Source: Caulobacteraceae bacterium (lineage in GTDB: Bacteria; Pseudomonadota; Alphaproteobacteria; Caulobacterales; Caulobacteraceae). Taken from it: a stretch of DNA of 64,000 nt. Of the stretch, positions 10,795 through 14,461 are shown piece by piece. Each line of letters opens with the position of its first letter. Position 1 is the first letter of the stretch. Under the pieces are notes generated by a model that saw only the letters and a program-made list of their open reading frames with translations, was not told where the DNA came from and did not search any database. The position numbers were made by a program, and so were the translations under genes. The DNA is taken from NCBI GenBank assembly GCA_947476325.1, contig CANJPZ010000002.1:124001-188000 (forward strand). The letters are read 5' to 3'.

Positions 10795-11217
10795 ATGATC
10801 GGCAAACTGAACCACGTCGGCGTTGCAACGCCTTCTCTCGACGAAGCGGTGAAGCTCTATCGCGACGTCCTGGGCGCCACCGACATCACGCCCAAGCGGA
10901 CCATGGCCGAGCAGGGCGTCACCTTCCAGTTCGTCAACCTGGGCAACGCCCAGATCGAGCTGATCGAGCCCTATGGCGACGACAGCCCCATCCTTAATTT
11001 CCTGGCCAAGAACCCGCAAGGCGGCCAGCACCACATCTGCTTCGAGGTTGAAGACATCATCGCCGCCCGCGACGAGATGCGGGAAAAGGGCGCGCGCATC
11101 CTGGGCACCGGCGAGCCGCGCATCGGCGCCCACGGCACGCCGATCATCTTCCTGCATCCGAAGGACATGGGCGGTCAGCTGGTCGAGCTGATGGAAACCC
11201 CGAAGGCGCCGCACTGA
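10795..11217 (+). CDS. mce: Methylmalonyl-CoA epimerase
   Basis: Glyoxalase-fold enzyme interconverting the R and S forms of methylmalonyl-CoA in propionate metabolism. 140 residues with two vicinal-oxygen-chelate repeats. Metal ligands are visible in LNHVGVATPS and HHICFEVEDI, with a late glutamate in QLVELMETP. ATG at 10795 (MIGKLNHVG) has GGAG 8 bases upstream and fits the family. Another ATG at 10759 sits behind a stronger GGAGGCGGGG and would add 12 residues, so the true start is not settled. TGATG overlap with the next gene. Confidence 0.92.
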   Translation: MIGKLNHVGVATPSLDEAVKLYRDVLGATDITPKRTMAEQGVTFQFVNLGNAQIELIEPYGDDSPILNFLAKNPQGGQHHICFEVEDIIAARDEMREKGARILGTGEPRIGAHGTPIIFLHPKDMGGQLVELMETPKAPH

Positions 11218-11477
11218 TGGGCCCGGTCACCGCGCTGTCGATCTATCTCGTGGTCTGGTGGACGGTGTTCCTAGGCGTCCTGCCGATCGGAAACATCACT
11301 TTCCATGAGGCCGGCGTTGCCCCGCCGCCCGGTTGCGATCCGGGCGCGCCGATGCAGGCAAACATGAAGAAGAAAGTGATCATCACCACGGGCGTCTCGG
11401 CGGTCGTTTTCGCCATCTTCTGGCTGATCGTCACCTTCCACCTGATCACCCTGCCGGGCGTGGCGCGGAACTACTAA
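11217..11477 (+). CDS. DUF1467 family two-helix membrane protein
   Basis: 86-residue inner-membrane protein of unknown role. Two hydrophobic helices (about residues 6-24 and 56-78) flank a short loop containing PPPGCDPGAP and a basic stretch (NMKKKVIITT). The hallmark N-terminal WWTVFLGVLPIG identifies the DUF1467 family known in alphaproteobacteria. The start overlaps the mce stop by one base, so it is co-transcribed with rnj/mce. Function is not known. Confidence 0.85.
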   Translation: MGPVTALSIYLVVWWTVFLGVLPIGNITFHEAGVAPPPGCDPGAPMQANMKKKVIITTGVSAVVFAIFWLIVTFHLITLPGVARNY

Positions 11478-11530
11478 GCGGCCGGGACATGGCCCCGCTT
11501 GCCTTTCGACCCAATCGCGCCTAGAAGCGC

Positions 11531-11609
11531 CGCCCATCACACACGTGGGCGTTCGGTTTGACCGGGGAGACATCCCGGCGGGTCGTTCCGGTCCCTCCAG
11601 CAGGAGGGG
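11531..11609 (+). promoter_or_regulatory. Candidate structured 5' leader of rpsB-tsf
   Basis: Three consecutive G+C-rich hairpins lie in the 175-base gap before rpsB: CGCCCA/TGGGCG (11531-11551), CCGGGG/TCCCGG with one G-U pair (11562-11578), and TCCCTCC/GGAGGGG (11592-11609) with an AGCA loop. None is followed by a proper T run. Known: S2 autoregulates the rpsB-tsf mRNA in E. coli. Inferred: these hairpins may form an S2-responsive leader. No promoter could be placed with confidence. Confidence 0.4.
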
Positions 11610-11652
11610 TTTGTCCACGGAGGTTCAACCGGAAGAATAAGGAATTAGAAGC

Positions 11653-12585
11653 ATGGCGCTTCCTGAATTTTCTATGCGTTCGCTGCTCGAAGCCGGCGCC
11701 CACTTTGGCCACCAGACGCACCGGTGGAATCCGAAGATGGAAAAGTACATCTTCGGCTCGCGCTCCAACATCCACGTCATCGACCTGTCGCAGACCATTC
11801 CGCTGCTGCACCAGGCCCTGGTCAAGGTTCGTGAAGTCGCCGCCGGCGGCGGCCGCGTCCTGTTCGTCGGCACCAAGCGCCAGGCGACCGACCCTGTCGC
11901 GGTCGCGGCCAAGCGCTGCGCCCAGTATTACGTCAACCACCGCTGGCTGGGCGGTACGCTCACCAACTGGCGCACCATCTCCGGCTCGATCGCCCGTCTG
12001 CGCGAACTGGAAACCATGCTGGCCAACGGCGGCGACGGCCGTCTGAAGAAAGAACTGCTCAAGCTGACCCGCGAACAGGAAAAGCTTGAACTGGCCCTGG
12101 GCGGCATCAAGGACATGGGCGGCATTCCCGACCTGATGGTCGTGATCGACACCAACAAGGAAGCCATCGCCATCCTGGAAGCGCGCAAGCTCAACATCCC
12201 GGTCGTCGCCATTCTCGACACCAACTGCGATCCGGACGGCATTGCCTATCCGATCCCGGGTAACGATGACGCCGCGCGCGCCATCCAGCTCTATTGTGAT
12301 CTGGTCGCCGACAGCGTTCTCGACGGCCTTGCCGCCGGCCAGGCCGCCATGGGCGTTGACCTGGGCGCGCAAGTGGCTCCCGTCGAGCCGGCCCTGCGCA
12401 CCAGCCGCGCCCGCGTTGAAGCCCCGGCGCCCGTCGCCGAGGAAGAGCCGGCCGGCATCACTGAGGAACTGGTCGCCGCCGCAGAAGCACCTGCCGCTGA
12501 AGCTGCGCCCGCCGCCGCCGAAGAGCCTGCCACGGCCACTGCCGCGGCCGAGCCGGCCGCAGCTGAAGAAACACCCCAGGCCTAG
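11653..12585 (+). CDS. rpsB: 30S ribosomal protein S2
   Basis: Structural protein of the small ribosomal subunit, 310 residues. The core (residues 1 to about 248) has the family segments [27 protein letters not shown] and [12 protein letters not shown]. The last 60 or so residues are a low-complexity tail rich in Ala, Glu and Pro, longer than the usual bacterial S2 of about 240-260 residues. ATG at 11653. Followed after 23 bases by tsf, the universal partner. Confidence 0.97.
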
Positions 12586-12608: not shown

Positions 12609-13544
12609 ATGGCGGAAATTACCGCGGCGCTGGTGAAAGACCTGCGCGACACCACCGGCGCTGGCATGATGGATTGCAAGCGCGCGCTTCAGGAAAATGG
12701 CGGCGACATGGAAGCCTCCATCGACTGGCTGCGCACCAAGGGCCTGTCCAAGGCCGCCAAGAAGGCCGACCGCGTCGCCGCCGAAGGCCTCGTGGCCGTC
12801 GCTTCGCGCGATGACGGCAAGGGCGCGACCGCCGCCGCCGTTGAGGTCAACGCCGAGACCGACTTTGTCTCGCGCAACGAGCTGTTCCAGAACGCCGCCC
12901 GCGCCATCGCGGCCGTCGGCCTGGAGTCTGACGACATCGCGGCCATCAGCGCCGGCAAGACTGCCGGTGGCGAAGTGGTGTCCGACCTGCTGACCAACCT
13001 GATCGCCACAATCGGCGAGAACATGATGGTCCGCCGCGCCAAGCGTTTCAGCGTCTCCGAAGGCGTCGTCGCAAACTACGTCCACAACGCAACCGCGCCC
13101 GGCCTTGGCCGGATTGGCGTGCTGGTGGCCGTCGAAAGCGCCGGCGACAAGGTGGCCCTGAACGAGCTGGGCCGCAAGATCGCCATGCACGTGGCCGCCA
13201 CCAACCCGCTGTCGCTGTCGGTTGACGATCTCGACCCGGCCGCGGTGGAAAAGGAAAAGACCATCCTGACCGAACAGGCGCTGGAATCGGGCAAGCCCGC
13301 CGGCGTCGTCGAAAAGATGGTCGAAGGCCGGATCCGCAAGTTCTACGAAGAAGTCGTGCTGCTCAAGCAAGCCTTCGTCATGAACCCGGACCAGACGGTT
13401 GAAGCCCTGGTCGCCGACACCGCCAAGCAACTGGGCAGCCCCATCAAGGTCACCGGCTTTGTCCGTCTGGCCCTGGGCGAAGGCGTGGAAAAGGCCGAGG
13501 CCCCCGACTTCGCCGCCGAAGTCGCCTCGATGACCGGCGGCTAA
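12609..13544 (+). CDS. tsf: Elongation factor Ts
   Basis: Guanine nucleotide exchange factor for EF-Tu. 311 residues, starting with a UBA-like domain ([20 protein letters not shown]) that contains the family signature, followed by [11 protein letters not shown] and the dimerisation region. A ribosome-binding site GGAG (12597-12600) precedes the ATG. A strong intrinsic terminator follows 30 bases after the stop, ending the rpsB-tsf unit. Confidence 0.97.
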
Positions 13545-13573
13545 GGCCACCCAGGTTTAAAATCCGCGATTTG

Positions 13574-13615
13574 AAATCCGCCCATCCCGCAAACGCTGGG
13601 TGGGCGGATTTTTTT
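13574..13615 (+). terminator. Rho-independent terminator after tsf
   Basis: AAATCCGCCCATCC pairs with GGGTGGGCGGATTT (14 pairs including one wobble) around the loop CGCAAACGCT, followed by a run of seven T. A short second copy of AAATCCGC just upstream (from 13559) could pair with the same 3' arm, so an alternative fold exists. It separates rpsB-tsf from pyrH. Confidence 0.9.
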
Positions 13616-13714
13616 GTCCTGCGGAACAGGCCGGTCCGTTCGACGCGCGCGGTGTCCTTGGTTATGGTGGTGCCTGACCGACTCGGCATCGCATTCATCA
13701 GAAGACCCATAACC

Positions 13715-14461
13715 ATGCCCGCCGCACCGTCTGCTTCCGCGCCTCGCTATCGCCGTGTCCTGCTGAAGGTCTCGGGTGAGGTGCTCATGGGCTCGCAAGG
13801 CTTTGGCCTCGACATGGATACCGTCGAGGCCGTGGCAGAGGAAATCGCCACCGTTCACAAGACGGGCGTCGAACTCTGCCTGGTCATCGGCGGGGGAAAT
13901 ATCTTCCGGGGACTGGCCGGGGCCGCCAAGGGCATGGAGCGCGGCGCCGCCGACTATATGGGCATGCTGGCCACCGTGATGAACGCGCTGGCCATGCAGA
14001 ACGCGCTTGAACGAGCGGGCGTGGATACTCGTGTCCAGTCGGCGATCCGCATGGATTCGGTCTGTGAGCCCTATATCCGCCGGCGGGCGCAGCGGCATCT
14101 GGAGAGGGGCAGGGTGGTGATCTTCGCCGCCGGTACGGGCAATCCCTATTTCACCACCGATACTGCGGCGGCCCTGCGCGCCGCCGAAATGGGCTGTGAC
14201 GCCCTGTTCAAGGGCACCAGCGTTGATGGAGTTTACACCGCCGATCCGAAGAAGGATTCCGGGGCCAAACGCTATGCGCGCCTGACCTACCACGATGTCC
14301 TGGCCCAGGATCTGAAGTTCATGGACGCTTCCGCCATCAGTCTGATGCGCGAAAACGGCATCCCCATCGTCGTGTTCTCGATCCGTGAACGCGGCGCCCT
14401 TTTGAAAGTCCTGAACGGCGACGGTGTGTTCACCGTCGTCGGCGACGAGGAGAAAAGCTGA
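13715..14461 (+). CDS. pyrH: UMP kinase
   Basis: Phosphorylates UMP to UDP; amino-acid-kinase fold, hexameric in the family. 248 residues from ATG 13715. Motifs: [23 protein letters not shown], and [17 protein letters not shown]. The same frame is open up to 13571, through the terminator, and has an ATG at 13664, but the family N-terminus fits 13715. Its TGA overlaps the frr ATG by one base (TGATG). Confidence 0.95.

Follow-up and report, generated by a model that had tools for sequence, protein, structure and literature searches.

We analysed a stretch of Caulobacteraceae DNA of 64,000 nucleotides (hereafter the window) that carries rpsB, the gene for ribosomal protein S2, with tsf as the next gene after it. 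Between a DUF1467 gene (11217-11477) and rpsB lies a gap of 175 bases (11478-11652), where an Rfam search placed RF01815 (rpsB), the only RNA family to reach its gathering threshold anywhere in the 64-kb window. The match scored 44.8 bits against a gathering cut-off of 40, covered the whole model (1-132), and ended 5 nt before the rpsB ATG. The features of the locus, in which P1, P2, and P3 denote the helices of the leader, are as follows:

11499..11501 (+), TTG of a predicted -35 element (CTTGCCTTT from 11498), spacing kept in the family
11520..11527 (+), predicted -10 element, CCTAGAAG, at a similar position through the family
11531..11551 (+), hairpin 1 of the first-pass annotation, 7 bp, not conserved by family pair count; its right arm shares bases with the P1 5' strand
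11533..11536 (+), predicted range of the transcription start, counted from the TTG at 11499
11540..11647 (+), rpsB leader RNA, RF01815, full model
11544..11551 (+), P1 5' strand, CGTGGGCG, identified by covariation
11562..11578 (+), P2 hairpin (hairpin 2), 6 bp, loop AGACA, aligned to the P2 region of RF01815
11586..11592 (+), pseudoknot 5' strand, TTCCGGT, in junction J2-3
11592..11609 (+), P3 hairpin (hairpin 3), 7 bp, loop AGCA, P3 in the RF01815 alignment
11612..11619 (+), P1 3' strand, TGTCCACG, identified by covariation and followed by GAGG at 11620-11623, which also follows the basal helix in E. coli
11628..11634 (+), pseudoknot 3' strand, ACCGGAA, identified by family pairing
11639..11643 (+), Shine-Dalgarno sequence AAGGA, 4 bases after the pseudoknot and 9 before the ATG
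11653..12585 (+), rpsB, ribosomal protein S2, 310 aa (Pfam PF00318, 306.9 bits)
12609..13544 (+), tsf, elongation factor Ts (Pfam PF00889)

Judged by its sequence, the gap before rpsB is a copy of the known rpsB leader RNA, of a kind already described in 2009. We equated RF01815 with the motif of Meyer et al. (2009; PMC2704228) from its name, place, and structure. The rpsB portion of that report describes a long P1 helix capped at a junction by P2 and P3, in which J2-3 forms a pseudoknot with the strand that follows P1, and places the motif in most Alphaproteobacteria. The window has P1, P2, P3, the pseudoknot joining J2-3 to the 3' extension, and the place before rpsB in common with this motif and shows no difference in kind. 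The first-pass annotation, made from the sequence without database searches, had called an alphaproteobacterial S2 leader plausible, and in this it was right; the finding itself is an ordinary one, a known leader in its expected place. Although positioned as a cis leader, RF01815 is typed in Rfam as an sRNA gene, and the leader may therefore be called an independent sRNA by annotation pipelines. Likewise, an annotated putative small RNA, T44 (tff, b4414), covers the rpsB leader of E. coli K-12.

The leader had originally been read as three hairpins, and inverted repeats were indeed found at 11531-11551, 11562-11578, and 11592-11609 within the 175-base gap. Taken alone, the three hairpins are weak evidence, because, of 1000 dinucleotide-shuffled versions of the gap, 3.1% had at least three such hairpins (non-overlapping, at least 6 bp with at least 4 G-C pairs, loops of 3-8; shuffle mean 0.9) and because the overall folding energy was ordinary (z of -0.26 for 181 nt and -0.85 for 121 nt). 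The accompanying statement that the hairpins lack terminator T runs held for hairpins 2 and 3, while hairpin 1 was listed as terminator-like by a lax scan (tail TTCGGTTTGA). Over 1 kb, that scan called 3 terminator-like sites where shuffles gave 0.6, and we did not credit a terminator at hairpin 1 on the strength of this call. Of the proposed anatomy, hairpins 2 and 3 survived as P2 and P3; hairpin 1 was not conserved, and P1 and the pseudoknot had been missed. The corrected anatomy, P1 with a pseudoknot in place of three hairpins, illustrates what unaided reading and folding can miss.

Conservation was evaluated in rpsB upstream regions from the window's family, taken from 77 of 80 genomes and counting the window itself; the other three genomes had no S2 match, and in one of the 77 the S2 gene was split over two contigs and the N-terminal piece was taken. 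Ten additional regions (L108-L117), one of which did not lie at rpsB, entered none of the counts. P1 and the pseudoknot are the best-supported helices, both conserved by covariation. Over eight anchored positions and 46 distinct strand pairs, 354 of 368 P1 pairs were canonical, against a mean of 298 (sd 5.3, maximum 318) in 2000 shuffles that kept strands whole and ignored relatedness. Pairs 3-7 each showed at least two Watson-Crick types, with both sides changing among the 77 upstreams; pair 8 was weaker (62/77). Even within the genus, pair 3 has undergone a two-sided change, from T-A in the window to C-G in another genome (L049). The absence of compensatory changes had been named as grounds for rejecting the leader, and many two-sided changes were found in P1 and the pseudoknot. 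Unaided folding failed to recover P1 in folds of either 181 or 121 nt.

The pseudoknot comprises 7 pairs in the window and covaries across the family. Pairs 3-5 were kept in all 77 members, pair 1 in 67, pair 2 in 73, and pair 7 in 45, and pair 6 was kept in 76 as G-C (56), A-T (17), or G-T (3). Five of the 77 have a weak pseudoknot of only 4-5 of the 7 pairs (L065, read on the right strand, has 5). We extended the comparison to 40 upstreams from the four other families of the order, ten per family, chosen without regard to the Rfam result. A script found the pseudoknot in 29 of 30 upstreams (6-7 pairs in 28, 5 pairs in the other), and the lone miss (L163) pairs by eye, TTCTGGC with GCCAGAG, including a C-G to U-A change. 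In the Parvularculaceae, where the strands were read off by eye and then checked by script, it was present in 10/10. P1 was seen in these four families by eye only. Directly after the P1 5' strand, the window carries TTCGG at 11552-11556; this element follows P1 in 46 of the 57 members whose pseudoknot strand starts with AC and in none of the 20 whose strand starts with AT. It may be a competing pairing for the pseudoknot 3' strand, or the association may reflect shared descent.

P2 and P3 are present in the window and variable among relatives, as judged from a greedy search in which some per-sequence stems were wrong; the same search found a stem after the pseudoknot 5' strand in relatives. 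By script, the P3 stem can be extended to 11590-11611 (9 bp), so that bases 11590-11592 may pair either in the extended P3 or in the pseudoknot. The P2 loop takes the form GGGAGACATCCC in 30 of the 77 members and GGTCAATCCC in 20, with neither in 27, and GGGAGACATCCC recurs in L135 and L145, from a distant family within the class. Because these loop forms are conserved, they suggest that P2 may be a contact site.

A promoter scan found no E. coli-type sigma-70 site before rpsB, so this type of promoter was dropped and the conserved spacing of TTG and the -10 element was taken instead. A TTG occurs 40-47 nt before the start of P1 in 77/77 upstreams, against 7/77 for a similar-sized bin 63-75 nt upstream. 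The octamer at 11520-11527 partly matches what we take to be the Caulobacter -10 consensus. For 93% of RpoD motifs in C. crescentus, the 5' nucleotide is reported to fall between -34 and -37 relative to the transcription start (PMC4287350). Assuming that the RpoD motif begins at the T of the TTG at 11499, the transcript is predicted to start at 11533-11536. This lies upstream of 11609, the position beyond which the first-pass annotation took a start to speak against a leader, and it falls inside the left arm of hairpin 1.

These results bear directly on the reading in which the leader consists of three independent hairpins and hairpin 1 serves either as a recognition element or as a switch against P1. 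The right arm of hairpin 1 is the P1 5' strand, and the two are therefore mutually exclusive. In favour of this reading, hairpin 1 has a stem of 7 bp in the window, the terminator scan picked it out, and an unaided fold from 11532 forms it; across the family, however, only 206 of 427 pairs were kept (61 distinct arm pairs) against 208 after shuffling, the spread of longest helices resembled that of swapped arms, and all 7 pairs were present in 1/77, the window itself. On these pair counts we rejected a conserved anti-P1 switch. The predicted start also cuts the left arm: for starts at 11533-11536, hairpin 1 is less stable than P1 by 5.9-14.8 kcal/mol (-31.3 kcal/mol for P1+P2+P3 vs -25.4 to -16.5 for the cut hairpin 1 with P2 and P3), whereas from 11531 the two are equal. 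We thus regard this reading as very improbable. Plain minimum free energy (MFE) folding favours neither the P1 nor the hairpin 1 fold and is uninformative as evidence, or counts against: the MFE structure from 11533 reaches -39.7 kcal/mol against -31.3 for P1+P2+P3 with the pseudoknot uncredited, and from 11532 it pairs the pseudoknot 3' strand with UUCGGUU at 11552-11558.

The RF01815 model under-calls this leader, because the pseudoknot was found in the upstreams of four other families that had been sampled independently of Rfam. Within the order, RF01815 matched at E <= 1 in 51 of 200 genomes, 21 of them over the cut-off, and no fewer than six weak matches lay on contigs other than that of rpsB. 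No Parvularculaceae genome exceeded the cut-off in this search of 200 genomes. Across the class, 181 of 289 genomes had a match at E <= 0.01, 74 of them over the cut-off.

The pseudoknot ends close to the Shine-Dalgarno sequence throughout the family. A strict Shine-Dalgarno (AAGGA, GAGGA, AGGAG, or AGGA) began 0-5 nt after the pseudoknot in 71/77 members, at 1 nt in 57/77, and was absent in 6/77; laxer patterns placed it within 0-5 nt in 77/77 and at 1 nt in 65/77. Among the three other families of the order with 29 parsed upstreams, it stood at -1 to 1 nt from the pseudoknot. At class level, with lax patterns and the pseudoknot counted one base shorter, it lay 1-6 nt after the pseudoknot in the 28 parsed of the 30 best-scoring of 181 loci, which are not a fair sample. 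The Rfam consensus for RF01815 includes AAGgAg after the pseudoknot strand. The rpsB section of Meyer et al. (2009; PMC2704228) leaves the distance between pseudoknot and Shine-Dalgarno undiscussed, and none of the literature titles and abstracts that we searched was recognised as discussing a contact between them.

In the Parvularculaceae, the two elements meet. The pseudoknot 3' strand overlaps the Shine-Dalgarno in 10/10 upstreams (7 have the complete AGGA inside the strand, 3 a portion of AAGGA), with pairings such as UCCUCAGU with ACUG-a-AGGA and UCUUCGGU with ACCGAGGA. The 5' pseudoknot strand bears an anti-Shine-Dalgarno UCCU, UCUU, or CUU, in some cases with one bulged base. The sample includes Marinicaulis (two records), Amphiplicatus, and a Parvularculaceae MAG; the family is an order of its own in the NCBI taxonomy and is grouped with the window's order in the genome collection we used. 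A pattern search of that collection with one Parvularculaceae form returned 16 matches (four of them genomes already in the sample), all 16 before an S2 N-terminus and each carrying an extra U paired to the Shine-Dalgarno.

The best-studied comparison is the S2 operator of rpsB-tsf in E. coli (Aseev et al., 2008, as cited in a 2024 review). The portion of the review that we consulted gives S2, together with S1, as a repressor of rpsB-tsf translation, places the ribosome binding site outside the S2 operator, and describes a common architecture of the leader in enterobacteria revealed by in-cell probing; S2 feedback through the leader in E. coli is also reported in the part of Meyer et al. (2009; PMC2704228) that we used. 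Read in the K-12 sequence, the E. coli operator has CACACG, the basal helix, GTGGAGG, and the place before rpsB in common with the window, and it also has a pseudoknot between J2-3 and the 3' side, GGGGT with ACCCC. Unlike in the window's family, the corresponding pairing in K-12 ends about 12 nt before GAGG.

Taken together, these observations make it likely, in our view, that the leader is an operator for self-repression of the rpsB-tsf mRNA by S2, in which the pseudoknot would act as a clamp that blocks initiation. The putative mechanism would run as follows. A transcript beginning near 11533-11536 would fold into a basal helix, P1, with P2 and P3 on top, and the P2-P3 junction would pair with the strand after P1 to form a pseudoknot ending at the ribosome binding site. 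Excess free S2, with S1 as in E. coli, would bind P1, the pseudoknot, and the conserved CACA/GAGG flanks; the 30S subunit would then be unable to load on AAGGA while S2 stabilises the pseudoknot, which would open again once S2 is taken up by ribosomes. The operators of ribosomal proteins S15 and S4 offer a precedent of sorts: there, a pseudoknot held by the protein reaches the ribosome site and blocks initiation. We likened the rpsB leader to them as a working comparison only, since protein, fold, and sequence differ. Against a clamp, the E. coli operator is reported to exclude the ribosome binding site, so the clamp may be local to this lineage or incidental. In addition, the Shine-Dalgarno of the window lies outside the pseudoknot, 4 bases off, and the strict form is absent in 6/77. 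We consider the chances about even that in alphaproteobacterial leaders an S2-stabilised pseudoknot covers the Shine-Dalgarno directly, a mechanism lacking in E. coli; if it does, this lineage would make the S2 initiation block directly testable.

The leader might instead work through transcription attenuation or mRNA stability. Some ribosomal protein leaders do regulate transcription, according to the part of Meyer et al. (2009; PMC2704228) that we used, and the T44/tff annotation over the E. coli leader would suit such a role. The window sequence, however, has no T run after P1, P2, or P3, the pseudoknot ends near the Shine-Dalgarno, and the consulted portion of the 2024 review describes S2 in E. 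coli as repressing translation, all of which leave this alternative unlikely. Slightly less probable still is a constitutive structure that sets basal rpsB translation or stability and is, in this lineage, insensitive to S2. Its appeal is that the literature titles and abstracts mentioned no Caulobacterales rpsB leader tested for a ligand; what counts against it is that the same basal helix, pseudoknot, and CACA/GAGG flanks occur in E. coli, where S2 feedback is reported in the sources above. Self-repression by S2 through the leader therefore remains our preferred reading.

On 16S rRNA, the S2 site comprises h26 and h35-h37. We considered P2 as a mimic of h37 (GGGTCAATCCC) and dropped the idea, with 27/77 family members having neither common P2 loop; an approximate query with a 17-base 16S pattern also gave no match in the assembly. 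The rpsB section of Meyer et al. (2009; PMC2704228) describes no obvious rRNA resemblance and leaves structural mimicry possible.

Two further observations concern the coding sequences of the locus. The S2 encoded in the window has a long tail rich in Ala, Glu, and Pro, with the Pfam domain stopping at residue 225 of 310, and the alignable length of S2 differs among relatives. The pyrH ORF (13571-14461) opens with a TTG start that has probably been placed too far upstream, because its kinase domain starts only at residue 62.
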